In this document: piece after piece, positions 12,358 to 38,962 of the stretch | Position numbering within the stretch: position 1 is the stretch's first letter | How the letters are laid out: each line of letters starts with the position of its first letter | Virus record (IMG/VR): IMGVR_UViG_3300046511_000932 | Coordinates: 1-39,493 of that record | Source: a virus | DNA: 39,493 nucleotides | Direction: 5' to 3' (one strand) | Position numbers and translations under genes: made by a program | Notes under the pieces: model-generated | Told to the model about the DNA's origin: nothing | Seen by the model: the letters and a program-made list of their open reading frames with translations, nothing else | Databases searched by the model: none

Positions 12358-12757
12358 TGTGTCCCCCGATCCTCATGATGAAGGCGCTCTGGTTTTCGCC
12401 GAAAGGCACCACGCCAGCAGTCGCAAACAACCAACGGATTGCTCGATTGTTGGTAGTGAACCGAATGATCCGCACTCCCTCGGACACGAGGTGCTCGTGT
12501 ACGGCCCGCAGAAGGCACCGAATGGCCGCCAGGCGCATGCAAACAGGGGCTTCGCGATCGGCTTGCAGGTTGTCGACAAAGACGAGCTGACTTGTCGGAT
12601 CGCGGTACGCGAAGATTGCCATCAATAGACGGCTTTGCTCCTTCACGACGTATCCGTTGCGACTGAGCGCGTCCGGATTGAACGGGCGCCCCAGCACCTC
12701 CGCCCAGTGCTGCAGGTACCTCTCGTGCGTCTCGGGGTTGTAGGGCTCGACGTGCAT
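12350..12757 (-). CDS. GNAT-like acetyltransferase in the structural operon
   Basis: 135-residue protein with the outline of a GCN5-related N-acetyltransferase: beta strands LLMAIFAYRD and LVFVDNLQAD, a helix region APVCMRLAAIRCLLRAVHEHLV and the C-terminal IIRFTTNNRAIRWLFATAGVVPFGENQSAFIMRI, which fits the final GNAT strands (neighbour of the acyl-CoA pocket). The classic R/Q-x-x-G-x-G/A loop is not well preserved, so catalysis is uncertain. GNAT-like proteins in this location are frequent in phage genomes and may modify a virion or host protein. Good ribosome binding site (GAGGTGA) before ATG 12757. Confidence 0.6.
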   Translation of the reverse strand: MHVEPYNPETHERYLQHWAEVLGRPFNPDALSRNGYVVKEQSRLLMAIFAYRDPTSQLVFVDNLQADREAPVCMRLAAIRCLLRAVHEHLVSEGVRIIRFTTNNRAIRWLFATAGVVPFGENQSAFIMRIGGHNA

Positions 12758-17950: not shown

Positions 17951-19234
17951 TCAGGCCGTCCCGCCGAAGTTGAGGCCCCGCACCCACGCCATCGGGTTGC
18001 GGTTCCGGTAACGGCCGTAGGTGCCGAGGCGTCCCTCGGCGGCGTCCGCGTTGGCGACGGTGAGCACTTGCTCGTTGTTCCAATGCAGCATGCGCGGCAC
18101 CGGACCCATCGACTCGAAGATGGTCTCGTTCATCGGGCCGAGGTAGTTGCGGCCTCGACGCACGAACGGGCTCGAGAGGAACTTGATATCGCCGTAATCG
18201 CCGGCGAACTTGATGACCTGAAACGACAGGCCGCCGACGCTCGACTTCATGCGGTCGAGGGTCATGCGAGCGGCTGCGACCTTCTTCAGGTTCGCAAGAT
18301 CGCGCGTGTTGATCTTGCAAACGCGGTTTGCGCCGTCCTCGTCCTCGCCCCAGGCGTACCCGAGCAGGGCTTCCTGGTCGATGATGGCTTCTTCGTAGCC
18401 CTTCGTCGCGCCGTCGTAGGTCTGTCCCGCGAGGCCGACCGGGTCCTGGTCACGGTTGCACGAGAAGAGCGTGCCGGGGGCGGTGCCGCCCTTCACCCAT
18501 TCGTCGTCGCCGGTGATGATGACGGACGAACCGAGCTGCGGACCGTCGCCGGCGCGGCAGAAGTAGACAAGGCCCGCCGTGATGTTCGCGTCGGTGATGT
18601 TGAAGGACGCGCCGAGCGTGTTGGACAGCGTGAACTGCCCGACGTCCGGGTTGCGATTGATGGCCGTGATGCGCGCGGTGCCGACATACTGCGTGGCCGT
18701 CGCGACGACGTCCGAGTTGTACGCGTGGATCTTCTCGAAGAGATCGAAGTTGATGATGTCGTCGGTGAGGGCGAGCGTGACGACGGTCGACGCCGCGGTG
18801 ACGCCGGTGGTCGCGCACTGGCCGACCATGCCGGAGCCGTTCCGTGTCAGGTACATCTCCTGGCACTTCATCTCCGTGATGCCGGCGCCGTCGGTCTCGC
18901 TCTTCAGCAAGTCGAGGAAGGCCTTGTCGCCCTTCTTCTTGGCGGCCTCCATGGCGGGGCCCTGCACGCGGAAGAGCGAATAGTGGTACGTGAGCGGGAC
19001 GAGCCAGCGGTTGTACGTGCCGGGCTGAAAGTTGCCCGCGGCCACTTCGAAGTCGGCGGATGCCGCTTGCGGAGTGCCGTTCTGCACGGCCTGCTGGACG
19101 TCGTCGCCGCCGTCGTCCTGGTAGCGCGGCGTGGCCGCGAGGATGGGGAACTTGGATTGCAGCGCTCGGGGGACGTTGCCACCGTCGAAGCGCCGCTTGA
19201 GGATCGCGCGTGCGTCCTCGTACTGCATGCTCAT
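17951..19234 (-). CDS. Major capsid protein
   Basis: 427-residue protein following the scaffold gene. Features consistent with an HK97-fold coat protein: helical, Arg-rich N-terminus, an extended segment with PRYQDDGGD, a long alpha helix (GPAMEAAKKKGDKAFLDLLKSETDGAG) resembling the spine helix region, and a beta-rich C-terminus with FLSSPFVRRGRNYLGPMNETIFES. The order portal, scaffold, coat is standard for P22-like and many other podoviruses. SD GGAG is 8 bases upstream of ATG 19234. The 59-base gap before it contains two hairpin-forming sequences. Assignment rests on size, order and fold-like pattern. Confidence 0.8.
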   Translation of the reverse strand: MSMQYEDARAILKRRFDGGNVPRALQSKFPILAATPRYQDDGGDDVQQAVQNGTPQAASADFEVAAGNFQPGTYNRWLVPLTYHYSLFRVQGPAMEAAKKKGDKAFLDLLKSETDGAGITEMKCQEMYLTRNGSGMVGQCATTGVTAASTVVTLALTDDIINFDLFEKIHAYNSDVVATATQYVGTARITAINRNPDVGQFTLSNTLGASFNITDANITAGLVYFCRAGDGPQLGSSVIITGDDEWVKGGTAPGTLFSCNRDQDPVGLAGQTYDGATKGYEEAIIDQEALLGYAWGEDEDGANRVCKINTRDLANLKKVAAARMTLDRMKSSVGGLSFQVIKFAGDYGDIKFLSSPFVRRGRNYLGPMNETIFESMGPVPRMLHWNNEQVLTVANADAAEGRLGTYGRYRNRNPMAWVRGLNFGGTA

Positions 19235-19242
19235 GGGGAAAT

Positions 19243-19290
19243 CTCCGGGCTAGGAGGCCTTGGAAAGGCCCGGAGGTCCCCGAGTCGGGG
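19243..19290. other. Two inverted repeats in the scaffold-capsid gap
   Basis: CTCCGGGC (19243-19250) pairs with GCCCGGAG (19268-19275), a perfect 8-bp stem with a 17-base loop. Next to it CCCCGA/TCGGGG (19278-19283 and 19285-19290) forms a near-perfect palindrome. They lie in the leader of the capsid gene on the minus strand, just upstream of its SD. No U-tract follows, so a transcript-stabilising or processing element that raises capsid expression relative to scaffold is more likely than a terminator. Confidence 0.55.
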
Positions 19291-19293
19291 CGG

Positions 19294-20367
19294 TTACCGA
19301 GAGGTGGCTTCGCGCTGTCGACGGGTCTTTTGCTCCGCGAGAAGAATGCGATCCTGTTCGGCTTCGCTCAGCTCGTGGAAAGCACGCACGTCACCACCGC
19401 TCCGCTCGCTCTGGGCCGCTTGATTCAGGCTCCGAGCCGCTTTCCCCGCTGCTGTTGGTGCGGGCGCACCCTTCGGTGGTGTGGGCGCTTGACCAAAACC
19501 GTACGTGGTCGCGAGCCAATCGGCAATCTCGCCGTAGGTGAGCTGCCCGCCCGGGCCGCGTTCGGCGGCGAGCTCGTCGGCGCGCTTGTGCGCCTGCTGA
19601 AGGTAGAAGTCCTGCATCCCAGGTCGTTTGAGGTGCTCTTCGGCGCCCGGATACTTCGTTTTGACCTCGCCGAGGAACGTGTCGGCGACCTGCTGGCGCT
19701 GCGCGTTGGCCTGCGCCTGCATGCGCGCAGCCTCGTCGGCCTTGATGCGTGCCGTCTGCTCGGCGCGCATCTGCGCGAGCTCCGCCTTCGTCGCGAGCAC
19801 TTCGCGCTCGATGCGCCCCTGCGGCGAATCGTAGTTGGCAATGTTCTCGACGAGCGCGACCGGGTCCCAACCCGCCTTCTTCGCCGCGGCGATGGGGTCT
19901 TTGCGCAAATCAACGATAAGCTGCTCGTACTCCGCGTCCGCCTGCTTCTTTCGCTGCGCGGCGTAGGCCTCGGCCTCGGACACGATGCGCGAGCCCTGGT
20001 CGCGGTACTGCCGAAGCTCGCGTTCGCGCGCCTCGTTCTGCTGAAGGCGCTGCGCGAGGGCCGCGTCGACGGCCGCAGCGAGCTTCGGGTCCGCGGGCGG
20101 AGCGGCCGCTGCGGGGGCCGGCGCGTCGCTCCCAGCGGGCGCCGAGGGGGCCTCGCTGGCGTCGTCCGGCGTGGGCTCCGGGGGACGGGCCTCGCGCGAG
20201 CTTCGCAGCGCGCCGAGGAGGTCGGCGTCGGACACGTCGCCGGGGCCCTCCATGACGGGCGTGGGGTTGGCGAGGGCAGGGGCCTTGGCCGGCTCGGCGC
20301 TCGGCGTCGGGAGGCTCGAGCTCCCGCCGGTGTTGTCGATGATGGCGCCTTGGGAGAGATCGGACAT
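19294..20367 (-). CDS. Scaffolding protein
   Basis: 357-residue, highly charged, mainly helical protein between portal and capsid. Residues 1-95 are disordered and rich in Pro, Ala and Ser; ~95-240 form a coiled coil rich in Gln, Arg and Ala (RLQQNEARERELRQYRDQG, LAQMRAEQTARIKADEAARM); the C-terminus is basic (TRRQREATSR), as required for the capsid-binding end of scaffolds. The function would be to guide procapsid assembly and then leave the shell. SD AAGGAAG is well placed before ATG 20367. Confidence 0.75.
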   Translation of the reverse strand: MSDLSQGAIIDNTGGSSSLPTPSAEPAKAPALANPTPVMEGPGDVSDADLLGALRSSREARPPEPTPDDASEAPSAPAGSDAPAPAAAAPPADPKLAAAVDAALAQRLQQNEARERELRQYRDQGSRIVSEAEAYAAQRKKQADAEYEQLIVDLRKDPIAAAKKAGWDPVALVENIANYDSPQGRIEREVLATKAELAQMRAEQTARIKADEAARMQAQANAQRQQVADTFLGEVKTKYPGAEEHLKRPGMQDFYLQQAHKRADELAAERGPGGQLTYGEIADWLATTYGFGQAPTPPKGAPAPTAAGKAARSLNQAAQSERSGGDVRAFHELSEAEQDRILLAEQKTRRQREATSR

Positions 20368-20382
20368 AGGGGCTTCCTTTCG

Positions 20383-22440
20383 TTACGCGGCTGCAGGCAT
20401 CGCCGGGGGCGGACCGGGAGGCATGCCCGGTGGGAGTCCAGGCGGGGCGCCGGGAGGCATCCCGGGAGGTCCAGGCGGCATGCCTGGCGGAGCGTTGGGA
20501 TCCATCGGCATGCCGCCGCCGGGAGGCATGCCAGGGCCGCCGGGAGCGCCGCCAGGGGCGGGAGGTGCGCCCTCGCTCGGGGGCTTGTTCAAGAGCCGCT
20601 CGGCCTCCTCGCAGAACTGCTGCACGAGGGCCTTCGTCTCGGCGTCCACGTCGTGGGCGAGACGGATCTGCGCGTACGTGCGGCGCCCGATCTTGATGGC
20701 GAGGGGCAGGTCATCGAAGGGCTCCGGCGAGAGGTATTCGCCCGACTCGATGATGCGGTCGAGCGTGTCGCGAATGACCTCGTAGAGCGACATATCGAGG
20801 TCGTAAGTCGCCTTCAGGTCCAGCGAATCGAAGGCTTTCCGGAAGCCGTTGATGTCGATGACGCCCTTGTCGAGGAGCTTCTCGAGGACGGCCATGCGGG
20901 CGCCCGGGAGCTTCGAGAGGCCGCTTGTCGAGAAGCACTTCAGGACGAACTTCTGGCGGTCTTTTTTGACGTCCTTCCACTTCAGCGGCCGCGCCGTGTG
21001 GTTGTCGGAGGCAATGACCTCATAGTCGCCGCCCGTCTCGCCCTCGCCCTCTTTGGCTTCGTTGTCCGAGAGCTCGTCGGCCTTCTCGAGAATGAGGTTC
21101 GCGCGCTTCACGACGAACATCTCGCGGAGCTTGAACTTCACGGCGTGGCGCTGCGTGTACTGGTCGTCCTTCATCTGCAAGGCGACGCCGCTCGCGTCCT
21201 TCATGCCCGGCTCGACGGTGCCGTTCGTGGTCATCTGGTTGGAGCCAGTGACCTCGTACATCTCCTGCTTGATGCTTTGCCGGAACGCGTAGGCATCGCC
21301 GCCGAGGGGCGACCATTGCATCGCCTGCGGCATTGTCTGCGAGCGAATGATGGCGCCGTTGAGGTCGTTGATGTGTTCGAGCTCGACCTCGCCTTGCCCT
21401 TTCGGCCCGCCCCAGATGCGGAACTTCGACGCGAGGGAATGCGCCTCACGGAAGCAGTCGTCGAGGTACGCGAGCTCGCGGTGGTTCGGGAGGATGCGCT
21501 GCGCGACGCTCATTCCGTCCATGGTCGCGAGGGGCACGTTGGTCCAGAGGAAGGCGAGCGGGAAGTCCTTGCACGTGTACTTCCGGTCGACGAGGCCCGG
21601 CTCGACGGAGTCCCCCGAGGTCGTGAGGACGAAGCGCCCGTCGTCGGCGCCCGGGCCCGAGGGCAGGTGCCAGGCTTCCGTGACCGTTATCATGTCGCTC
21701 TGCGCCCAGAGCTCTTCGCTCTGCCAGTTCTCGCGGATGAACACGGCGCTGTCGATGGCCTCGCGCCGACGCTCGGCGCTGCCCACGGAACCGTCGTAGG
21801 CCTCGCGGCCGAAGCGATCGAGCACGGTGCCGCGGTCGACGGCGTAGCGGTGATAGACGGTGCGAGGCTTTCGGTAACGGCTCTCGAGCGGGTCAATGCG
21901 CATCTCCCAGCGCGGCACGCAATCGAAGCCGATGCGGCCCTCGGCGGTCTCGACGCACTTCGCGATCGCGACGCCGAAGAGGAGAGCGTGCAAGCCCCAG
22001 AGTAAATCGAGCTCGTCGCAGCCGGCCTCGTACTCGACGCCGTCGATGAAGTCCGAGAGGTCGCGCGCTTGCCGCTGGGCGCGCCACGAGCCGCGGTCCG
22101 TCACGAACATCGGGACGAGCCGGTTCTTGTAGATGTCCGCTTGCAGCGACTCGAGGATGTTGGCGAAGACGTTGGTCGGCTGCCAGTCGCGGAAGCTCGG
22201 GAGGTTCGTGGTCTGCACGCCCGAGGGGAAGAGCATCTCGTCGGCGCCGAAGGCCTGCGCGATGCGCCGGCACGAGTCGACGATGCGATCGTGGTAAGGC
22301 CGGATACCGTCGACGTTGGCGTTGACCATGGCGCCGGCGCTCATGCCTTGCTCTTTGGCGCGCCAAAACTGCCCGTTGCGAATCCTTCGCTTGGGCATCT
22401 TGTGCGGGTCGGAGTCGACGTTCGCTTGGTTGTCCGGCAT
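20383..22440 (-). CDS. Portal protein with collagen-like Pro/Gly/Met C-terminal tail
   Basis: 685-residue protein between the large terminase and the scaffold. Portal-like signs are an N-terminal helical region, an IRPYHDRIVDSCRRIAQAFGADEML start, a central beta-rich wing and long C-terminal helices before a low-complexity tail. Residues ~617-685 consist of repeated PPGMPPG-type units encoded by a repetitive GC-rich stretch (about 20386-20590). Such a tail is unusual for portals and is probably disordered. It forms the dodecameric DNA entrance and docks the terminase. SD GGAG is before ATG 22440. Confidence 0.8.
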   Translation of the reverse strand: MPDNQANVDSDPHKMPKRRIRNGQFWRAKEQGMSAGAMVNANVDGIRPYHDRIVDSCRRIAQAFGADEMLFPSGVQTTNLPSFRDWQPTNVFANILESLQADIYKNRLVPMFVTDRGSWRAQRQARDLSDFIDGVEYEAGCDELDLLWGLHALLFGVAIAKCVETAEGRIGFDCVPRWEMRIDPLESRYRKPRTVYHRYAVDRGTVLDRFGREAYDGSVGSAERRREAIDSAVFIRENWQSEELWAQSDMITVTEAWHLPSGPGADDGRFVLTTSGDSVEPGLVDRKYTCKDFPLAFLWTNVPLATMDGMSVAQRILPNHRELAYLDDCFREAHSLASKFRIWGGPKGQGEVELEHINDLNGAIIRSQTMPQAMQWSPLGGDAYAFRQSIKQEMYEVTGSNQMTTNGTVEPGMKDASGVALQMKDDQYTQRHAVKFKLREMFVVKRANLILEKADELSDNEAKEGEGETGGDYEVIASDNHTARPLKWKDVKKDRQKFVLKCFSTSGLSKLPGARMAVLEKLLDKGVIDINGFRKAFDSLDLKATYDLDMSLYEVIRDTLDRIIESGEYLSPEPFDDLPLAIKIGRRTYAQIRLAHDVDAETKALVQQFCEEAERLLNKPPSEGAPPAPGGAPGGPGMPPGGGMPMDPNAPPGMPPGPPGMPPGAPPGLPPGMPPGPPPAMPAAA

Positions 22441-22458
22441 CGTCCGTGTCTCCTCGGC

Positions 22459-23982
22459 TTACGCTGCGCGCCGGCGTTGGCGCATCTCGTCCCGGGCCGC
22501 GCGCTTCATGCGCTCAGCCTCACGCTTGAACCACGCGCTCGTCTCGTATCCGGGCGGCATCGGCCGCACGTCGGGAAGGAACGGAACGAGCGAGAGCACC
22601 TTGGCGGCCGCGTAGTCGCAGTGCCGGCCGTCGGAGGTCTTCGGCAAGTGCGCACGCATGCCGGCCTGCGTGGTGCGGCGGCGGATGCGTTGCAAGTCGG
22701 TGCGGTAGTGGCCGTCGGTCGAGAGGGCCATCGTGCCGTCGGCGATGCCGTCGCGGAGGAAGAGGTAGCGCTTCGTCTCCTCCTCGCCCTGCACGCCGTC
22801 GACGAGCAGCGTGATGCCGTAGTCGGAGGCGTGGTCGCGCATGGCATCGGAGTAGTGCTGGTCGGTGCGCGTGAGGCTGCACCGGTACTTCGTCAGGAGG
22901 GGGCCGAGCTCTGTCCACACTTCGCGGGGCGAGAGCGGCTTCTGCGGCGTCCCGATCCATTCGCGCACGCACGCATCGACGATCTTGTTGCCGATGCGGG
23001 TCGAGATGACGAGGGTCCAGGCGTTGCGCCGCGTGGCCGGGTCGATGGCCGCCGAGTAGCTGGCGTTCGGGTCCGGCTCGAGGTCGCCCACGATCGTCCG
23101 GCACGCCTCGAGGCTGGCCTGGTCGATGAGATTGTCTTCCTGGTCGGCGAAGTCGGCGTCGAGGTTCGTGACGGCGATGTCCGGGTGCCGCGCGCGGAAG
23201 TCGGCGCAGCGCTCGGGCGTCCACCACTTGGGATTCATCCAGTAGCCAGGCGCCTTCAGGACGAGCATGCCGTCGCCCGGGCGTCCGAAGTACTCGATGA
23301 ACTTCTCGTACGCCGGACCGAAGGGCGCCCACGGCGAGCCGATGTGAAACATCATGCCCTTCGGCAGAATGCGACCCGTGCACTCTCCCCGCATATGGTC
23401 CCAGTTGATGACGCCTTCCTCGGCGCCGAGCATCTTGGGAAACTCGTCGAAGATGGCGCCGCCGAGCCACCGTGCGCTCACTGAGGCGCCGGCGCGGCTA
23501 CCGGCCGTGACCATGATCTCGCACGGATGGCCCGAGGGCGTCCGTACCACGAGCCGTTCGGCGTCGGGCTCCTCGAGGAGCAAGCCCGCGAGCTGGGGCG
23601 AGAGCGTGAGCGCGTTCTTTAGATGGCTATAAGCCTGGCCGGCGAGGTCCTTCGAGAGCGACACGATGGGAATGCGGAAGCTCTCGCCGCGCATCAGCAT
23701 CGACGTGTCCACGACCTGCGAGAGGCAGATGGCAGCGGCGGCGACGATGCTCGTCTTCCCGGCGCGGACGCCCGAGAAGACCACGAGCTCGTCGGGACGC
23801 TTCTCGACGCTCGCACCGCCGAGCGCCTTCACCACGGTCTCGTCGCCCGCGACGTCCCCCAAGGGCCGGTCATCGATGATGCGAGTGATGGCCTTCTGAA
23901 GCGGGGCCGGGTCGCAGATGCCCATGCCGCCGCGGGCGGTGAAGAGCCGCTCGACGGATTGGGTCAGGTAGCGGGCGAGCAT
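22459..23982 (-). CDS. Terminase large subunit
   Basis: 507-residue ATP-driven DNA packaging motor. The ATPase domain has a Walker A motif GVRAGKTS (residues 71-78), a Walker B AIFDE (D179, E180) and a coupling-type segment IGSPWAP around 214-220. The nuclease domain follows, with AAIDPAT where D314 is the likely first metal-binding acid. The start ATG 23982 lies inside the previous gene (19-base overlap). Upstream start codons in frame would add an Arg-rich, unlikely extension. The C-terminal tail is Arg-rich and probably binds the portal. Confidence 0.9.
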   Translation of the reverse strand: MLARYLTQSVERLFTARGGMGICDPAPLQKAITRIIDDRPLGDVAGDETVVKALGGASVEKRPDELVVFSGVRAGKTSIVAAAAICLSQVVDTSMLMRGESFRIPIVSLSKDLAGQAYSHLKNALTLSPQLAGLLLEEPDAERLVVRTPSGHPCEIMVTAGSRAGASVSARWLGGAIFDEFPKMLGAEEGVINWDHMRGECTGRILPKGMMFHIGSPWAPFGPAYEKFIEYFGRPGDGMLVLKAPGYWMNPKWWTPERCADFRARHPDIAVTNLDADFADQEDNLIDQASLEACRTIVGDLEPDPNASYSAAIDPATRRNAWTLVISTRIGNKIVDACVREWIGTPQKPLSPREVWTELGPLLTKYRCSLTRTDQHYSDAMRDHASDYGITLLVDGVQGEEETKRYLFLRDGIADGTMALSTDGHYRTDLQRIRRRTTQAGMRAHLPKTSDGRHCDYAAAKVLSLVPFLPDVRPMPPGYETSAWFKREAERMKRAARDEMRQRRRAA

Positions 23983-24260
23983 GGCTCCTCGGCCGCGTTG
24001 TAGGCGACGAGTCCGTAGAAGAAGAGGTGGGCGATACGCTTCGTGCTGTTGCGCGCATCGCATTCGCTCACTTCGAAGTAGCCCCCTTCGCCGTTGCTCG
24101 TGGCGTAGTCGATGGCGAGGCTCGGGTAGTCCGCGCCTTCATCGATGATGTAGACGTCGGGTATGCCTTCCTTCACGCCCGCCTCGGCGAACAGCGTCTC
24201 AAGCTCTCGCTGAATGGCGTCACGCACGGGGATGAAGTCGGAGGCGAGCCACTTCGTCAT
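23964..24260 (-). CDS. Hypothetical small protein upstream of the large terminase
   Basis: 98-residue acidic protein with an amphipathic N-terminal helix (VRDAIQRELETLFAEAG) followed by alternating strands (DVYIIDEGADYPSLAIDYAT, GGYFEVSECD). It may be a small alpha/beta adaptor. The start ATG 24260 overlaps the preceding stop (GTGATG; a GTG one codon earlier is also possible). It ends 19 bases inside the large terminase gene, indicating coupled translation. No family recognised. Confidence 0.65.
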   Translation of the reverse strand: MTKWLASDFIPVRDAIQRELETLFAEAGVKEGIPDVYIIDEGADYPSLAIDYATSNGEGGYFEVSECDARNSTKRIAHLFFYGLVAYNAAEEPCSPAT

Positions 24261-26406: not shown

Positions 26407-26945
26407 GACGACGCCCCCTCGAGGGCCTCGGCGGCCGCCTCGAACTGCGCGCGGACGTCGTCGGTCTCGGCCATCTTGGCGAGGGCGCGGAGGTAGACGC
26501 GAGCCTCTTCGGGGCCGAGCAGGTCGATGTTGTGCGGGAGCTCGATGGACTTCATCGCGATCTCGCTCTTCGTCTCGATGCGCTTGCCCCATCGCTTGTT
26601 GTGGCGGCGCTCGAGCAGCCACGCGTTCGGCTGCCAATCGATCTGACCCGCGACTTCGATGCGCCGAAGGAGGCCCACCTCGGCGTCGGCCATGGCCTTG
26701 CGCGTGGCGAGGTAGAAGCGGGCATGCGGCGCGTGCTCAGCGTCGTCGCCCTCGAGGGCGAGCTTCCCGATCTTCATCCAGCGCCGGTACGTGTCCCACG
26801 AGATGCCGGCCGAGATGCAGGCGACGGTGATGTAGTTGCCCGCGCGAATGGCATCGAGGGCGGCCATCGCTTCGGGGCCTTCGGGCGAGATGCCCTTCTT
26901 GCCCTTCGCCTTCTTCCAGTCTTTGGGAGCGCGAGGGTCGCTCAT
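26403..26945 (-). CDS. Terminase small subunit
   Basis: 180-residue DNA-recognition component of the packaging motor. The N-terminal ~70 residues form a helix-turn-helix (AIRAGNYITVACISAGISWDTYRRWMKIG), followed by a helical oligomerisation region (ARFYLATRKAMADAEVGLLRRIE) and PNAWLLERRHNKRWGKR, a pattern typical of small terminases. The C-terminus is acidic. It precedes the large terminase by about 2.4 kb, with small genes in between. ATGA overlap with the upstream glycosyltransferase-like gene. Confidence 0.8.
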   Translation of the reverse strand: MSDPRAPKDWKKAKGKKGISPEGPEAMAALDAIRAGNYITVACISAGISWDTYRRWMKIGKLALEGDDAEHAPHARFYLATRKAMADAEVGLLRRIEVAGQIDWQPNAWLLERRHNKRWGKRIETKSEIAMKSIELPHNIDLLGPEEARVYLRALAKMAETDDVRAQFEAAAEALEGASS

Positions 26946-27715
26946 CGCTGCCTCTCGAGGTCGTAGGCCTTCTCGACGAGGCCGCCGGCCTTCCAGGCGT
27001 GGGGCTGCACGTTGGTCAAGAGGCGCCAGTGGTTGCCGTGGTACTGGCGACCGAAGCGGGCGATGGGCCCCGTCTGCCAGCGATGCGCGCCGAGTCCGCT
27101 CACGTCGTCAGGCGGAGGGACCGAGGGCGTGCGGTGGTCGTCGCTGGCATTGCCCACGGTGCTCTCGCCCGGGAGCTGATGGCCGACGAGGCTCGGGAGC
27201 GTTGTGAGGATGCGCCGGCCCGTGGCCATCGCCCAGAGGTTGATGCGGCCGTCGTCCGTATGCTCGCCCGTGAAGTTCGCGTCGTGCCAGGCGAGGAACT
27301 CCTTCACGTTCTCGCGGTGCATGCCGCAGCCCACGCCGACGAGGCCATCGGGGGTCGTGTAGAAGGCAGCGCCCCTCGCGTGGGCTTCAGGCGCGCGCTC
27401 GTTCGCCGTGTAGAAGCAGACCGGGTCGCGGGGGCTGCGAGCGTTGGCGGCGTCGAGGGCATCGAGGGCCGCCTGCTTGAAGCCGACGGGCACGCTGGCG
27501 TCGTCGTTCAGGAGCACGATGAAGTCGGAGCCGTCCTCGAGCCCGTGCTCCCAGCACTTCCGAGCCGTCCACCAGGCGCCGCGCTTGGCGTCGTCCACCA
27601 TGAAGTAGGCGCCGTTGACCTCGAGGTCGCCGCCGAGCTGCCTATCGAGCGCGCGCCCCGACTCCACGCGCCCTGGGAACGCGGGGCAATGCATGATGTA
27701 GAAGGCGACGCTCAC
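26942..27715 (-). CDS. Glycosyltransferase-like protein (GT-A fold)
   Basis: 257-residue protein. The N-terminal part follows a nucleotide-sugar transferase outline: VAFYIMHCPAFPGRV, then FIVLLNDDASVPVGFKQAALDAL, where NDDAS (70-74) takes the place of the DxD metal-binding motif, then the acceptor-side GVGCGMHRENVKEFLAWHDANFTGEHTDDGRINLWAM. The strand/helix order resembles family-2 glycosyltransferases. The acceptor is unknown; candidates are phage DNA, capsid or host surface glycans. GTG start overlapping the previous small gene. Confidence 0.65.
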   Translation of the reverse strand: MSVAFYIMHCPAFPGRVESGRALDRQLGGDLEVNGAYFMVDDAKRGAWWTARKCWEHGLEDGSDFIVLLNDDASVPVGFKQAALDALDAANARSPRDPVCFYTANERAPEAHARGAAFYTTPDGLVGVGCGMHRENVKEFLAWHDANFTGEHTDDGRINLWAMATGRRILTTLPSLVGHQLPGESTVGNASDDHRTPSVPPPDDVSGLGAHRWQTGPIARFGRQYHGNHWRLLTNVQPHAWKAGGLVEKAYDLERQR

Positions 27716-27822
27716 GCCGCACCGCCCATCGGCCCGGGCGGACCTTCGTCGCGGCACGCCTCGATGACGATCCAAAGACCCACGAGAATGAGCACGGCGG
27801 TCACCTTGATGAAGGTCGTCAC
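27712..27822 (-). CDS. 36-residue single-pass membrane protein between two glycosyltransferase genes
   Basis: A very short ORF: GTG 27822 overlaps the stop of the upstream gene and its stop overlaps the GTG of the downstream gene, so it fills the space exactly. Residues 5-21 are hydrophobic (IKVTAVLILVGLWIVIE), followed by a hydrophilic Pro/Gly tail. The perfect stop/start overlaps on both sides and the high third-position GC support real translation. Function unknown; a membrane anchor or modulator for its neighbours is conceivable. Confidence 0.65.
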   Translation of the reverse strand: MTTFIKVTAVLILVGLWIVIEACRDEGPPGPMGGAA

Positions 27823-28514
27823 GCGGCCTCCCGGGGGCTGAAGAGCTGCCCCTGGTACACGTGCCGGCCGGCGTGACCGAACCACGCGGGGCCGTAGCAG
27901 TGAATGCGCCCGCCCATGCCCCGCCAGCGCTGGCAGAAGGCGTAGTCCTCGGAGAGGTAGCGCCGGCGCGTCGGCTCGATAAACGGGATGAAGAAGCCGA
28001 ACTGCGGCTCCCCGGGAGCGTCGTCCATGTCCGAGACGAGGAGGAGCTCCGGGTGCTCCTCCGCCATGCGCACGAGGACGCTCCGCTCGATGCAAAGAAA
28101 GCCCGTGGCAATCTCCTGCACCTCGAGCCAGCCGTCCGGCTCGGGCACGCTCACCCCCGCAGCGAGGTCCGCCTCGAGCGGATTCACGTTGAAGCCGGCG
28201 CCGATGGCCTTCTTCGGATAGGCCCCGCCAACGACAGGCTTTCCGCTCTCAATCAAACGCAGAACATCGGTCGACTCAAACGCGATATCGGCGTCGATAA
28301 AGAAGAGGTGCGTGCAGTCCGACTTGAGGAAGTCATGGGCCAGCCTGTTTCGGCCGCGGCTGATGAGAGAATCGTGAACGTTGAAATTAGCCTTGAAGAC
28401 GCAGCCTCTTTGGACGAGCGTGCTCACGAGCATCGTCCAGCTCTGGACAAACTCCGCGTCGAGATTGCCGCCAAAGTTGGGCACCGCGAAGTACGGTTTG
28501 AACAGCCAACCCAT
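27819..28514 (-). CDS. Glycosyltransferase-like protein (first gene of the late operon)
   Basis: 231-residue protein of a type often found in phages and in glycan clusters. The N-terminal region has ISRGRNRLAHDFLKS (residues ~51-65) followed by CTHLFFIDADIAFE, where D74-x-D76 is the DxD motif for metal-nucleotide-sugar binding, then LRLIESGKPVVGGAYPKK and an aromatic C-terminal domain with SEDYAFCQRWRGMGGRIHCYG. The ATG 28514 lacks a good SD. It starts the ~27-kb minus-strand operon and faces the ParA cassette across the regulatory region 28515-28656. Confidence 0.7.
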   Translation of the reverse strand: MGWLFKPYFAVPNFGGNLDAEFVQSWTMLVSTLVQRGCVFKANFNVHDSLISRGRNRLAHDFLKSDCTHLFFIDADIAFESTDVLRLIESGKPVVGGAYPKKAIGAGFNVNPLEADLAAGVSVPEPDGWLEVQEIATGFLCIERSVLVRMAEEHPELLLVSDMDDAPGEPQFGFFIPFIEPTRRRYLSEDYAFCQRWRGMGGRIHCYGPAWFGHAGRHVYQGQLFSPREAA

Positions 28515-28656
28515 GTGCGAGTGATGCTCGCCGAAGTACTTCGATTGAACAAGTCAGCTTTTCCCCATCTGGAATAGCTAACTTGTTGACACTTCGAATT
28601 GTCTACTTGTCTACAAGCTTGCAATTCGACTTGTTGAATGCTTGGCTCATCCCCCG
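28515..28656. promoter_or_regulatory. Divergent regulatory region with ACTTGT boxes and a 36-bp interrupted palindrome (candidate parS/operator)
   Basis: This 142-base AT-rich gap separates the late operon (minus) from parA (plus). It has four copies of a box resembling GACTTGTTGA: 28548-28555 (reversed), 28580-28589, 28604-28613 and 28628-28637. Bases 28594-28629 form a dyad: TCGAATTG (28594-28601) pairs with CAATTCGA (28622-28629), and nested on the same centre CTTGT (28606-28610) pairs with ACAAG (28613-28617). TTGACA at 28586-28591 with TCTACA at 28610-28615 (18-base spacing) is a possible parA promoter lying across the dyad. ParA partners with ribbon-helix-helix folds commonly bind such arrays, both as centromere and operator. 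Confidence 0.6.
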
Positions 28657-29322
28657 ATGGGCAGCAGCAGTATCGTCGCCATCGCGAACATGAAGGGCGG
28701 CGTCGGAAAGACGACCGTCGCGCAGACGCTCGCGTGCTTTCTGGCCGATGCGGGCGCGCGCGTGTGCCTCGTCGACGCCGACCCGCAGGGGACGAGCCGG
28801 GTGTGGGCCGAGAAGGCCGCGGAGCTCGGGCGCGACGTGCCGCGGGTGATGAACCTGGGCGGCGCCGAGGCGATGCACCGGGAGCTCAAGAAGATGCGCG
28901 CCGAGTGGGACGTCGTCGTCGTCGACTGCCCGCCGCGCATGGGCCGCGAGACGCGGGCGGCGATGGCCGTGGCCGACGTAGTGCTCTTGCCCATAAGCCC
29001 GGGGGTCGCCGACCTCTGGGCGCTGCAAGACACGCTCGCTGTCCTCGAGGAGGCGCGCGGCTTCAACACGGAGCTCGAGGCGCGGGCGGTTCTCAATCGC
29101 TTCGATACGACCCTCATGGCGAAGGGCATCGCGGGGAGCCTCGAGGGCGCCGGCGTGGAAGCGCTCGCGGCGCGGCTCACGGCGCGCGTGACGTTCTCCG
29201 AGGCGATGGCGGAGGGGCGCTCGGTGCTCTCCTACGCCCCGGCGAGCAAGGCGGCGTTTGAGGCACGGCGCTTCGGGCGCGAGGTCGAGGCCCTCATGGG
29301 CGGGAAGGCGCGGGCGGCATGA
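28657..29322 (+). CDS. parA: ParA-family partition ATPase
   Basis: 221-residue Walker-type ATPase. Deviant Walker A KGGVGKTT (residues 13-20) with the signature lysine, VDADPQG (39-45) as the A' motif and VVVVDCPP (87-93) as Walker B. This is the small ParA type without an N-terminal DNA-binding domain, used in plasmid-type Ib systems where the second protein is a ribbon-helix-helix. It would bind the nucleoid non-specifically and move its cargo. Start ATG 28657 is chosen; there is no SD, and a TTG five codons earlier is an alternative. It overlaps the next gene (ATGA). Confidence 0.85.
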   Translation: MGSSSIVAIANMKGGVGKTTVAQTLACFLADAGARVCLVDADPQGTSRVWAEKAAELGRDVPRVMNLGGAEAMHRELKKMRAEWDVVVVDCPPRMGRETRAAMAVADVVLLPISPGVADLWALQDTLAVLEEARGFNTELEARAVLNRFDTTLMAKGIAGSLEGAGVEALAARLTARVTFSEAMAEGRSVLSYAPASKAAFEARRFGREVEALMGGKARAA

Positions 29323-30057: not shown

Positions 30058-30431
30058 ACCTTCTTCTTCACCTTCGAGTACGGCCGGAACGCGTCGCCCT
30101 CTTTCCACTCTTCGGGCACCGGAGGCCACCTGCAGCTCTTGTCGATAACGTTGGGCATGAGCTTAGCGGCAAGCGCGTAGGCGACCTGGAAGGCCTCAGC
30201 GAGGTGAGCCATCTGGTCGTGCCAGCAGACGTGGTACGCGCCCTCCGAACTCGTCGACCAGTTCGCGCAGCCGTCCCACTTGATGCCGCCCTTAATGGCG
30301 TTATCCCAAAGCTCGCCGTCCGAGCTCAGCTCTAGGTTGAAGACGTGAAAGTCGACGACGTGCGTGTTGCCTTCAGCGAGCTCCGCCTCCACACGCAGCG
30401 ATTCATCGACCCGATGAGAGAGCTTCGTCAT
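30042..30431 (-). CDS. Hypothetical protein of the replication operon
   Basis: 129-residue protein, acidic N-terminal half with strands (NTHVVDFHVFNLELSSDGELWD), a Trp-rich centre (IKWDGCANWSTSSEGAYHVCWHDQ) and a helix (HLAEAFQVAYALAAKLMPNVI), ending in a basic segment with VKKKVGTDG. The centre and length recall small phage proteins of unknown function that sit near replication genes. Start ATG 30431 overlaps the RusA stop. Its C-terminus and that of RusA (GTDG) are encoded by the same 17-base sequence. Confidence 0.65.
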   Translation of the reverse strand: MTKLSHRVDESLRVEAELAEGNTHVVDFHVFNLELSSDGELWDNAIKGGIKWDGCANWSTSSEGAYHVCWHDQMAHLAEAFQVAYALAAKLMPNVIDKSCRWPPVPEEWKEGDAFRPYSKVKKKVGTDG

Positions 30432-30443
30432 CCGTCCGTCCCC
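30427..30443. repeat. 17-bp repeated gene junction, copy 2
   Basis: Second copy, joining the RusA-like gene to the gene at 30042. Spaced 386 bp from copy 1, so recombination between copies would remove exactly one gene and leave a functional junction. Confidence 0.7.
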
Positions 30444-30874
30444 GCCCTTTGCCGCTCCTCCTCGAGGACGCGTTGCCAGACCTCGATGCGCACGCCGTGG
30501 GGCATCTTCTTCGAAGCGCGGTCCTGGCCGTACCGCCATTCGACCCGGGGGTCACGGTCCGACTTGAGGCCGAGGGCGTCGGCGATGCCGTCGCGGACGG
30601 CCTTCAGGGCGCCGCGGAGGTTGTCGTCGTCGAGCTCGCCGCGCGAGAGGCGGGTCATGCGGACGACGAGGGGCATCGTGAGCGTCTGCGGCTCGTTCCG
30701 GTCGCCCGGGTAGGCGCAGAAGCCGGCGCGCCGAAGCGGCGTGGCGAGGGCCATGTACGCCCCCGTCCGTTGCGCCGCCGCTCGCCGAGCCCGCTCGTGG
30801 AAGTGGCTCCGGGCGTTGGCCTCGGAGACCGTCATGAGGGGCAGCTCCAGGGCCAGGACGAGAGGGAGGGTCAT
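30428..30874 (-). CDS. rusA: RusA-like Holliday junction resolvase
   Basis: 148-residue endonuclease of the RusA fold. The diagnostic segment is LDDDNLRGALKAVRDGIADALGL (starts at residue 81; DDDN 82-85 and D95 are metal-ligand candidates), followed by SDRDPRVEWRYGQ. RusA dimers cleave four-way junctions produced during recombination-dependent replication. It is coded next to the replication initiator and opposite the recombination operon with exonuclease and annealase. ATGA overlap with the initiator stop. Confidence 0.8.
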   Translation of the reverse strand: MTLPLVLALELPLMTVSEANARSHFHERARRAAAQRTGAYMALATPLRRAGFCAYPGDRNEPQTLTMPLVVRMTRLSRGELDDDNLRGALKAVRDGIADALGLKSDRDPRVEWRYGQDRASKKMPHGVRIEVWQRVLEEERQRAGTDG

Positions 30875-31974
30875 GCCGGCAAGCTCTTGTAGAAGCCCAT
30901 GACCTCCTCGCGAGCGGCGAGCTCCGGCGGAGGGGGCTGCACCTTCGCGGGACCGGCCTTGGGCTCCGTAGGCCTCTTCCGCTTTGGCCTCTCGTCGTCC
31001 TGCGTGTCGAGGAAGCGCCGGAAGGCGGGCGGGTCAAACGTCTCGCGCTCGGGTCGCCAGTACGAGAAGCGTCGTATGCAGGTGATGAGGGCCTTCGCCC
31101 GGTCTTCTCCCTCGAGGCCGACGGCGTCGAAGTAGCCCATGGCCGAGGCTAGGGCCTCGCGATTTGACGGCAGGCGCGGGTTGAACGACCACGCCGGATT
31201 GCCTTCGACCTCTCGCACCGCCGCGACGTACAGCTCCGCGTCGCTCGGCGGTGGGGGCACGGCCTTGAGCCGCATCTCGCTCACGGGCTCCTTCCGCGGA
31301 TTGCCCGAGGTTTCATAGCCTCCCCCCCCTTCTCGCATGGCCATGGGCATGGCCTCGTGGCCATGGCCTCCGATGGCCTGGCCATCCAGTGAGGCCATAA
31401 GGCCATCAGAAGGGGGGGATTGGATTTTCTCTTTGGTTTCTCGGATCTCAGAGGAAGAAGGAGATCCAGAAGGCCATGCAGGGGCCATGATGGCCTCGGG
31501 ATGGCCTTCGATGGCCTTGGCCATGGCCTGGCTATCCGGGGCCATGACCTTACGGGCTGCCTTGCCCCATCGCGCGAGGGCACCCTTCAGGCCGGCGGCG
31601 GAGAGCTTCTCGTTGCGAACCTTCTTCGTCTGCTCGAGGGCCTCGACGGTCGGCGCCGCGGGTTGGGTCCGCTGGTACGCGTCGAAGTCGTGGATCTGGA
31701 AGACGCCCTCGGCGACGACCTCGAGGAGGCCGGAGCGAACGAGGCGTTCGATGAGCCCGGGCACCGTGGCGCGGCGAAGGCGACCATCGGCCCCGGGCAT
31801 CCGGAGCTCGCCGAGCTCGTGGGCGATGCAGGCGGCGAGCTGCTCGGTGGTGACGTGGCCACCGGTCCGGTACTGCGCTGCCCAGCAAATGGCGTTGAGC
31901 CAGAGGGTTCGAGCGGCGACGCCGGCATCGAGGACCTTCGGGTGACGGGTCACCCGGTCATCGAGGAAGATCAT
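30871..31974 (-). CDS. Replication initiator (lambda O / DnaD-like organisation) with internal origin repeats
   Basis: 367-residue protein. Residues 1-100 form a winged-helix-like DNA-binding region (FLDDRVTRHPKVLDAG, then ATVPGLIERLVRSGLLEV, FQIHDFDAYQRTQP), as in phage replisome organisers. Residues ~143-213 are a Met/Ala/Pro/Ser-rich hinge encoded by the GGCCAT repeat cluster. Residues ~245-367 are a helical C-terminal domain (AELYVAAVREVEG, ALITCIRRFSYWRPE) likely to bind the host helicase or loader, with a basic Pro-rich end. Lambda O has the same order: N-terminal iteron binding, origin inside the gene, C-terminal helicase-loader contact. Start ATG 31974 is preceded by an AGGA; longer in-frame starts are Arg-rich and unlikely. 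Confidence 0.7.
   Translation of the reverse strand: MIFLDDRVTRHPKVLDAGVAARTLWLNAICWAAQYRTGGHVTTEQLAACIAHELGELRMPGADGRLRRATVPGLIERLVRSGLLEVVAEGVFQIHDFDAYQRTQPAAPTVEALEQTKKVRNEKLSAAGLKGALARWGKAARKVMAPDSQAMAKAIEGHPEAIMAPAWPSGSPSSSEIRETKEKIQSPPSDGLMASLDGQAIGGHGHEAMPMAMREGGGGYETSGNPRKEPVSEMRLKAVPPPPSDAELYVAAVREVEGNPAWSFNPRLPSNREALASAMGYFDAVGLEGEDRAKALITCIRRFSYWRPERETFDPPAFRRFLDTQDDERPKRKRPTEPKAGPAKVQPPPPELAAREEVMGFYKSLPA
31337..31545. repeat. GGCCAT/ATGGCC repeat cluster with AT-rich centre: candidate replication origin
   Basis: Within 209 bases there are 17 occurrences of GGCCAT or its complement ATGGCC, at 31337, 31339, 31349, 31359, 31363, 31373, 31380, 31393, 31401, then 31472, 31483, 31490, 31501, 31511, 31519, 31523 and 31540. 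Two blocks flank an AT-richer patch (31418-31440) and a 7-bp inverted repeat GGATCTC/GAGATCC (31443-31449, 31461-31467). By rough estimate fewer than one copy is expected by chance. The cluster lies in the hinge region of the initiator gene, as lambda's iterons lie in gene O. Initiator binding and melting of the AT-rich patch is the inferred role. Confidence 0.65.
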
Positions 31975-32118
31975 CTTCCTGCCCTCATCGGGCGACGGCC
32001 TTCGGCACTTCGGATGCTCCCCCCGCGACCTGCGCGGAAGGACAGAATGCACCGGTGTGCAGCTCCGGGGAATACCCTGGGGCACGCTGACACCAGCCCA
32101 CAATCAACCACTTCGCCC

Positions 32119-37350: not shown

Positions 37351-37577
37351 GCCGCGACGCCGCCCTTCGCCGTGCCGCCTCGGCCCTCTCGGCCGCCGGC
37401 ACGGCGCTCCAGGACGCCGCCCAGGCCCTCGCCGAGGCCACGGGCGAGGAGAGCGTCCGCACGCGCAAGCCTCGAAAGGGGCCTGTCTTCGAGCCTCCGC
37501 CTCCTGAGCCGCCGTCGGCGCTTCACATGGCCCGGGCTCGTGACCTACTCAAGAAGCGGGGAGTGACAGCAGCATGA
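37347..37577 (+). CDS. Hypothetical small protein upstream of integrase (excisionase position)
   Basis: 76-residue protein: Ala-rich helix (RRAASALSAAGTALQDAAQALAEA), a basic Pro-rich linker (RTRKPRKGPVFEPPPPEPP) and a short C-terminal helix (MARARDLLKKRGVTAA). Small basic proteins directly before int are often excisionases, but no winged-helix pattern was visible, so this remains open. The stop overlaps the integrase start (ATGA). Confidence 0.6.
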   Translation: MSRDAALRRAASALSAAGTALQDAAQALAEATGEESVRTRKPRKGPVFEPPPPEPPSALHMARARDLLKKRGVTAA

Positions 37578-38962
37578 TCCGAGCGAGAGGAACCGGCACC
37601 ATCGAGCCGTTGCCGTGGGGCGGCTTTCGGGTGCGCATACCCATCGCGGGCGTGCGCGAGGACTTCGGCCCGTTCGCGACGCGCGAGGAGGCCGAGGCGA
37701 TGGCGGCGGCGCTGCGGCTCACCGCGCAGCGGGAAGGCGTTGTCATCTCGGGCGTGAAAACGCTCGCGGCCTACGGGCCCACGGTGCACGACGAGCGCGA
37801 GAAGTCGGGCTACACGACCGTCGAGGACCACCGGGGCATCTGGCGCCGCGAGGTGCTCCCGTGGTCGTGCTCGAAGTGGCCGCTCGCCGCCGTCGGCGCG
37901 GGCGACGTCCGCCGATGGGTCTCTGCCCTCTCGGCGAAGCACAAGACGTCGACGGTGAAGAACTGCCTCTCGGCCCTCCGCGCGGTCTTCTCCGCGGCGA
38001 CGCAGGACGGGCTCGTCGAGGTGAACCCTTGCAAGGGCGTCGACATTCGCGGCCGCGGGACGACCGAGGAGACGTCGACCTTCCTCTCGCGTCTCGAGCT
38101 CGAGGGCCTCATCGAGGCGGCCGGCGCGCCCGACGGGCTGCTCGTCGCCTTCGCCGCGGGCACCGGCCTCCGGCAAGGCGAGATGCGCGGACTGCTCGCC
38201 GCCGACGTGCACCTCGATTGCCCTGCGCCCTGGATGACGGTCCGCTTCGGGGCGCCGGGCATGCCGACGAAGCCGCGCCGCATCCGGAAGGCCCCCATCT
38301 TCGGGCTCGCCCTCGAGGCGGCCCGGGCGTGGATGAAGGTCCGGCCGAAGAGCGACCGGGGCCTCATGTTCCCGCGGCCCTCCGGCGAGCCGCGGGCGAA
38401 GGGGGCCATGGTGACGGGCGACGCGTGGGAGGCGTGGCTACGGACGGCCGGCATCCGGCGCAACGTCCGCTGGCACGACCTCCGGCACACGTGCGCGACC
38501 CTGCTCCTGCAGGGGGCCTGGGGCCAGCCCTGGAGCCTCGAGGAGGTGAAGGAGATGCTCGGGCACTCCAGCCTGCGCGTCACCGAGCGCTACGCCAAGG
38601 CGACCGGGTCCTTGGCCGACCGCGCGGCGGCGGAGAAGTTCGGTCCTGAACGGTCCTGGCTGCCGTCCCTGGCGATCGCATCGGCAGGGGAATTATCGAG
38701 GCGTGGATCGGATTCGAACCGACGTATGACGGTTTTGCAAACCGGTCCTCTCCTAAGTGAGTACGGGCACTTAGGCGCGAATCTGGTCTCTCCCGGGACT
38801 CTCGAAGCCGTCGAGACCGCCAGCCACGCCTACCTCCGGGCCGTCGTCGCTGGGGACCGGCACGCCCACACGAAGGGCCTCGAGCTCGTCGCCCGGGTGC
38901 ACATGTTCGTCGACGAGCTCCGGGCCGCCATGGCGCCGCCAGCGCAGGAGGGCGTGGCGTGA
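37574..38962 (+). CDS. int: Tyrosine integrase with attP inside its coding sequence
   Basis: 462-residue tyrosine recombinase. N-terminal arm-binding part (GTGTIEPLPWGGFRVRIPIAG, 7-27), core-binding SAM-like region (~70-160), catalytic domain with R200 (GTGLRQGEMRG), H301/R304 (HDLRH), H331 (LGHSSL) and nucleophile Y340 (TERYAK). After a normal end near residue 355 the frame continues through the attP core (residues ~375-391, the typical antisense-tRNA peptide GSDSNRR…LQTG) and adds a 71-residue tail with excellent codon bias. Integration would replace this tail with residues read from the antisense strand of the host tRNA 5' half. Myxococcus phage Mx8 has the same design. Overlaps neighbours by ATGA/GTGA. 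Confidence 0.9.
   Translation: MIRARGTGTIEPLPWGGFRVRIPIAGVREDFGPFATREEAEAMAAALRLTAQREGVVISGVKTLAAYGPTVHDEREKSGYTTVEDHRGIWRREVLPWSCSKWPLAAVGAGDVRRWVSALSAKHKTSTVKNCLSALRAVFSAATQDGLVEVNPCKGVDIRGRGTTEETSTFLSRLELEGLIEAAGAPDGLLVAFAAGTGLRQGEMRGLLAADVHLDCPAPWMTVRFGAPGMPTKPRRIRKAPIFGLALEAARAWMKVRPKSDRGLMFPRPSGEPRAKGAMVTGDAWEAWLRTAGIRRNVRWHDLRHTCATLLLQGAWGQPWSLEEVKEMLGHSSLRVTERYAKATGSLADRAAAEKFGPERSWLPSLAIASAGELSRRGSDSNRRMTVLQTGPLLSEYGHLGANLVSPGTLEAVETASHAYLRAVVAGDRHAHTKGLELVARVHMFVDELRAAMAPPAQEGVA
38641..38775. other. attP region: arm-type repeats and inverted repeat around the core
   Basis: CGGTCCT occurs at 38641-38647, 38651-38657 (two copies in tandem, one helical turn apart) and 38743-38749, at the far edge of the core. 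CCTAAGTG (38752-38759) and CACTTAGG (38768-38775) form a perfect 8-bp inverted repeat just beyond the core. Such repeats beside a tRNA-like core are candidates for integrase arm sites and accessory protein sites. All lie within the int coding frame. Confidence 0.55.
38697..38745 (-). other. attP core: 3' half of a tRNA-Cys gene
   Basis: Read on the minus strand from 38745 to 38697 this is the 3' half of a tRNA: anticodon stem 5' arm CCGGT, loop TTGCAAA with anticodon GCA (Cys), 3' arm ACCGT (one mismatch at the outer pair), variable loop CATAC, T-stem GTCGG / loop TTCGAAT / CCGAT, and acceptor 3' strand CCACGCC followed by T and CGA. No D-arm or 5' acceptor strand precedes it, so it is not a complete tRNA. 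Phages that integrate into tRNA genes carry exactly such a segment to restore the host tRNA. The host attB is therefore predicted to be a tRNA-Cys(GCA) gene. Confidence 0.85.

Follow-up and report, generated by a model that had tools for sequence, protein, structure and literature searches.

Where this phage begins to copy its DNA is the question raised by a gene on its minus strand, the middle of which is packed with one short word in both orientations. The window analyzed here is the whole 39,493-nt stretch of IMG/VR record IMGVR_UViG_3300046511_000932, a circular phage record of 39.5 kb with a 127-bp direct terminal repeat. A first-pass annotation had proposed that the words form a replication origin inside the hinge-coding part of an initiator gene. 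We asked whether the words are kept as DNA, what the gene encodes, what its relatives carry and which other roles could account for the array.

A dense array of six-nucleotide words

Seventeen copies of the 6-mer ATGGCC or its complement GGCCAT lie within 31337-31545 (209 bp), exactly the number first counted, in two blocks of nine and eight; on the plus strand, nine read GGCCAT and eight read ATGGCC. The claim that this density is far above chance also held up, as the densest 6-mer in any 209 bp reached a maximum of 11 copies, with a mean of the maximum of 7.1, when the whole phage was shuffled 60 times with its dinucleotides preserved. Steps between words of the same orientation are 10, 10, 11, 11, 12, 12 and 13 bp, four of 21 bp, and also 8 and 14 bp. 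The spacing had been described as irregular, and it is looser than in relatives, but distances of 10-13 or about 21 bp are common between words of the same orientation.

The two blocks flank an AT-rich patch (Table 1). This had been called the only AT-rich stretch, which is correct within the gene but not within the phage: at 31419-31468 the A+T content ties for second among the 50-mers of the circle, and the 50-mer at 28567 is higher (32/50). The inverted repeat noted between the blocks is real (31443-31467), but its arms are only 7 bp long.

Table 1. Features of the window discussed in the text, with positions in the 39,493-nt stretch
Feature	Position	Strand	Content or basis
ParA family partition ATPase	28642-29322	+	Family match; 2 kb from repeats
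RusA-like resolvase gene, directly downstream of initiator	30428-30874	-	PHROG 34, 2e-4
Initiator gene, 367 aa from ATG at 31974	30871-31974	-	PHROG 2447/3926, replication initiation protein
C-terminal helical domain, aa 245-327	30994-31242	-	AlphaFold2 model
Disordered hinge, aa 145-244, holding nearly all repeats	31243-31542	-	pLDDT mostly 42-59 (aa 145-240)
Iteron block nearer gene 3' end	31337-31406		9 ATGGCC/GGCCAT words
C7 run, gene strand, after AATCCAATC	31412-31418	-	No canonical (CCCNN)n tract here
AT-rich patch, candidate duplex-unwinding region	31419-31468		29/50 A+T
Inverted repeat GGATCTC(11)GAGATCC, 7 bp	31443-31449/31461-31467		Inside AT patch
Iteron block nearer gene 5' end	31472-31545		8 ATGGCC/GGCCAT words
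Linker motif SAAGLKGALARWGKAARK, aa 125-142	31549-31602	-	Class AGxKGAxxRW; alignment, model, class-word association
Winged-helix (wHTH) domain, aa 1-103	31666-31974	-	AlphaFold2 pLDDT mostly >90

As the array overlies a gene, the words might be a by-product of coding, with a Met/Ala-rich low-complexity linker yielding ATGGCC through codon bias. Met-Ala is spelled ATG GCC, and five of the words encode Met-Ala in frame. Only five do so, however, and 10 of the 17 lie in the other two frames (relative to the gene, frames 0, 1 and 2 hold the starts of 7, 3 and 7 words); because the words are present in all three frames, coding offers no explanation for them. When the hinge protein was re-encoded with the codon usage of the phage, 3,000 trials gave 5.5 ± 2.1 words and a maximum of 13. 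As re-encoding never gave 17, we conclude that the words are maintained at the DNA level. A stricter control, in which synonymous codons were shuffled only inside the segment, still averaged 11.2 words and could reach 17, a high count that arises because the codons of the segment itself already spell the words. The segment also holds 133 inverted 6-mer pairs, a number reached in 0 of 1,000 such segment-internal shuffles. Inverted pairs were considered as a family trait and rejected, since only 26 of 90 relatives exceed their synonymous-codon shuffles, a low number because most relatives use mainly direct repeats.

The initiator and its predicted domains

The open reading frame as called, from the TTG at 32103, is probably too long: homologues start at MxWFKVDD, so translation most likely begins with the ATG at 31974. 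The protein matches two PHROGs families of replication initiation proteins (2447 at 3.2e-14, over residues 47-147 of the ORF, and 3926 at 1.1e-10). Neither Pfam nor NCBIfam has a model for it, a sequence search of solved structures gave no meaningful match, and family searches found no helicase domain or family match.

An AlphaFold2 model built with 44 sequences divides the protein into the domains of Table 1, with a long basic helix (residues 110-144), confidently predicted, between the wHTH domain and the hinge. By structure, the wHTH domain matches the winged helices of MCM8 and ORC1 (Z of 7-8 over 70-87 residues); Foldseek against the PDB returned generic winged helices only, and among the viral models of BFVD the matches were Gordonia phage HTH proteins, DUF1376 proteins and a replisome organizer. 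The C-terminal helical domain is presumed to be the contact for a helicase or its loader. In one relative (L109), the C-terminal part has a weak match to DnaT at 20.6 bits, under the cut-off of 25. The repeats encode residues 144-213, which fall in the predicted disordered hinge, and this part of the earlier description of a lambda O-like gene stands; "O-like" applies as a likeness of layout.

Most related initiator genes carry repeats in the same region

Searching viral and genome collections with the whole protein turned up no close relatives, and among phage records there were none at E 1e-5. The wHTH region alone retrieved 326 phage records, mostly from Mycobacterium, Gordonia and Streptomyces phages, many of them weak at an E limit of 10 and the best at about 30-34% identity. 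Small alignments extended this to many loci in IMG/VR and in sequenced bacteria, the hosts named in one of these scans all being actinobacteria. The initiator of the window sits on a long branch: over the wHTH domain, no relative exceeds 42% identity to it.

We scored repeated 7-mers per 250-bp window against shuffles in 105 related loci, near-copies included. The highest-scoring window of the locus lay inside the initiator gene in 67 of the 105, and in 94 the best window of the initiator gene ranked in the top 5% of its locus, with the peak typically 325-425 bp after the start of the gene. The words of relatives are 5-6 nt long and recur in the same orientation at steps of 11-12 bp, about one helical turn, with echoes at 22-24 bp; words of opposite orientation sit at preferred offsets. 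Homologues that kept the hinge but lost the repeats had been named as grounds for abandoning the origin proposal; instead, most relatives keep repeats while both the word and the hinge sequence change.

A second element accompanies the words in most of the family. A (CCCNN)n tract with n of at least 3 is found in 92 of 128 non-redundant related loci and in 7 of 364 control stretches, most commonly as CCCGA or CCCGT and at a median position of +405 of the initiator gene (loci L003-L365). With its period of 5, the tract is read in all frames. In eight loci with short initiators (108-132 aa), it lies 29-103 bp past the stop codon, which argues that the DNA is conserved, not the protein. The tract is common but not universal: the window has no canonical copy (n of at least 3), only C runs. 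That the period-5 and 11-12-bp repeats of relatives persist with unrelated amino acids, and that the tract lies beyond the stop codon of short proteins, also speaks against the words being a by-product of coding, which we consider the least likely of the explanations weighed here.

A linker motif goes with the repeat word

The basic stretch that directly follows the wHTH domain occurs in distinct types, which correspond to the words. With the window excluded, we ranked every 6-mer by linker class, which gave TGGCAA/ATGGCA for AGxKGAxxRW, GAAGCA for AGxxGG and GCGTGA/CGTGAC for RQR. For class-by-word counts across the 128 non-redundant relatives, a locus was scored positive if it had at least 4 words in 530 bp; the linker classes were defined by regular expressions drawn up once part of the data had been seen, and the tests ignore relatedness. 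Counted in this way, GAAGCA/AAGCAA occurred in 15 of 19 loci of the GG type and 0 of 109 elsewhere (Fisher 2.9e-16, relatedness ignored), CGAAC in 20 of 21 loci of the RM type (RM..R) and 9 of 107 others (1.6e-15, likewise), and CGTGA in 14 of 18 loci of the RQR type and 8 of 110 others (4.3e-10, likewise). For the KGA_RW type, with a word set of TGGCA/ATGGCC that ATGGCC joined when the word of the window was already known, the counts were 4 of 5 against 2 of 123 (6.9e-6, relatedness again ignored). The exceptions are L104, which bears AGKKGAESRW, and L265, which bears AGKAGAAARW; once these were reclassified, with the result in view, the counts became 6 of 7 against 0 of 121.

With AGLKGALARW as its linker, the initiator of the window belongs to the KGA_RW type, and ATGGCC shares the ATGGC core, ending in C where the ATGGCA of relatives ends in A. 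Another linker class, GNHxRWH with a CxxC pair after it, was seen in L124, L169, L171, L270, L321 and L361; ATCGGG is a candidate word in two of these loci and ATCGCA in another.

On a tree of the wHTH domain alone, which is poorly resolved, the linker types change 5 to 18 times. In supported independent pairs, the word changed with the linker on average in 1.0 of 1, 3.2 of 5, 3.7 of 5 and 3.8 of 5, and against it in 0.0; none of the single-class sign tests on this tree reaches 0.05. We lean toward a modular code in a large family of phage initiators, in which a basic helix after the wHTH domain, exchanged between wHTH backgrounds, would go with a 5-6-nt origin word set at helical-turn steps, a frame-independent (CCCNN)n tract would be the site of opening or loading, and the origin would lie in the initiator gene or immediately beyond it. 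The window would be a far outlier of this family, with ATGGCC on both sides of an AT patch. No description of a motif-word code or of the (CCCNN)n tract was found in the literature searched, which covered few subscription papers.

Neighboring genes and other roles for the words

Several relatives' initiators adjoin DnaB-like helicases or helicase loaders. In the window, the neighbor downstream is the RusA-like resolvase gene, and no helicase was recognized in the subset of ORFs scanned.

Binding of the words by a wHTH protein could also serve another end: they might be operator sites through which the initiator or another phage regulator controls early transcription and not replication. Proteins of the wHTH kind often repress their own genes, and the repeats do lie within the gene of the presumed binding protein. 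The sites are, however, about 430-640 bp inside that gene and not at a promoter; in relatives, the repeats are in the same region or just past the stop codon, and the nearby genes are replication genes. An operator role is thus unlikely.

The phage also encodes a ParA family partition ATPase, and the words might be its centromere (parS), parS arrays being likewise made of short repeats. Against this, the ParA-like gene is 2 kb away and has an AT-rich, repeat-bearing upstream region of its own at 28515-28641, and word type follows the linker motif of the initiator in relatives, so we find a centromere at 31337-31545 very unlikely. The region 28515-28641, where A+T reaches its maximum for any 50 bp of the circle, also carries copies of ACTTGTTGA/ACAAGT in both orientations; it is a candidate parS or ParA operator, or a candidate second origin. 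No ParB partner for the ATPase was recognized in the phage. The ATPase coexists with an integrase, encoded at 37574-38962.

Elsewhere in the phage, at 26942-28514, a glucosyltransferase-like ORF (PHROG 854) adjoins the gene of a PHROG 1574 protein; the latter has dozens of relatives in environmental phages, at about 33% identity. The presumed virion module (17951-24063) contains large ORFs with no PHROG or Pfam match, which marks the phage as a far outlier, and searches with a large virion-module ORF product and the ParA-like and PHROG 1574-like proteins found no close kin.

Comparison with known origins

The origin of phage lambda lies in the middle of gene O, with iterons beside an AT-rich tract; lambda has four long iterons and the Stx phages P27 and 933W have six, on one side of a single AT-rich tract (PMC7466680). 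The window shares with these phages a putative origin placed mid-way in its initiator gene, an AT-rich tract with repeats next to it and a DNA-binding N-terminal part. The likeness is one of layout: the window has 17 six-nucleotide words, in both orientations and on both sides of the tract, and the repeat unit is, as had been noted, unlike that of lambda.

In the phage-inducible chromosomal islands (PICIs; SaPIs and Gram-negative PICIs), the origin is 3' of a helicase-type Rep gene (PMC6092414), whereas the repeats of the window are inside the gene of a wHTH initiator in which no helicase domain was detected. The initiator RepA of Miko and Jeeves, extrachromosomal mycobacterial prophages, is sufficient for replication, and an origin likened to that of lambda O was proposed immediately upstream of or within repA, with no repeats reported (PMC7157519); that RepA is of the plasmid type, and what it shares with the window is being a phage initiator. 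RepA_N of the PLEs, satellites of Vibrio phages, binds semi-palindromic repeats, and the PLE origin shares with the window an initiator from a phage-related element together with repeats, but differs in being in a non-coding region, with longer iterons around a poly-A tract (PMC7145576).

Named actinophage counterparts are Phonegingi gp42, BritBrat gp87 and Zitch gp59, RepA-like or replication initiation proteins that share a homologous wHTH domain (about 30-34% identity) and clustered hinge repeats. Their genes differ in using other words at 11-12-bp steps and in having a (CCCNN)n tract, which the window lacks. No published origin for these three phages was found in the literature searched.

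A putative origin and how it may work

Computation shows that the repeats are there and do not depend on the reading frame, how the protein's domains are arranged, that such repeats accompany the gene across the family and that motif and word correspond. An internal origin in the hinge of the initiator gene, as the first-pass annotation had it, is the reading best supported by the gene family, its neighbors, the repeats of 105 loci and the motif-word link, and the operator, centromere and coding explanations are weaker. Judging from sequence, we put at about 0.84 the probability that 31337-31545 is the replication origin of the phage, lying where the phage's own initiator gene codes for the hinge; there the initiator would bind the words, the AT patch would open and a helicase would be recruited.

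In such an origin, the wHTH domain and the adjoining basic helix (SAAGLKGALARWG...) would bind the ATGGCC(T) words of both blocks, with several initiator molecules lined up along the duplex. The resulting nucleoprotein complex may strain and open the AT-rich patch between the blocks, and the C-terminal domain could then bring in the replicative helicase, either directly or via a loader.

Several features count against an origin here: the word is ATGGCC and not ATGGCA, the spacing is looser, the (CCCNN)n tract is missing, the initiator is on a long branch, and the AT-rich, repeat-bearing region at 28515-28641 is a rival site. There is also no GC skew minimum at the repeats (the detrended minimum is at 12733 and the maximum at 27530), but the skew, being weak and in step with gene direction, speaks neither for nor against an origin at this place.

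Few actinophages or related phages were found to have a mapped origin. The correspondence between motif and word would offer a readable and testable rule, pointing both to the site where replication starts and to the part of the initiator that reads the origin. In the window, the same bases would serve as protein hinge and as origin, a dense double use of DNA.
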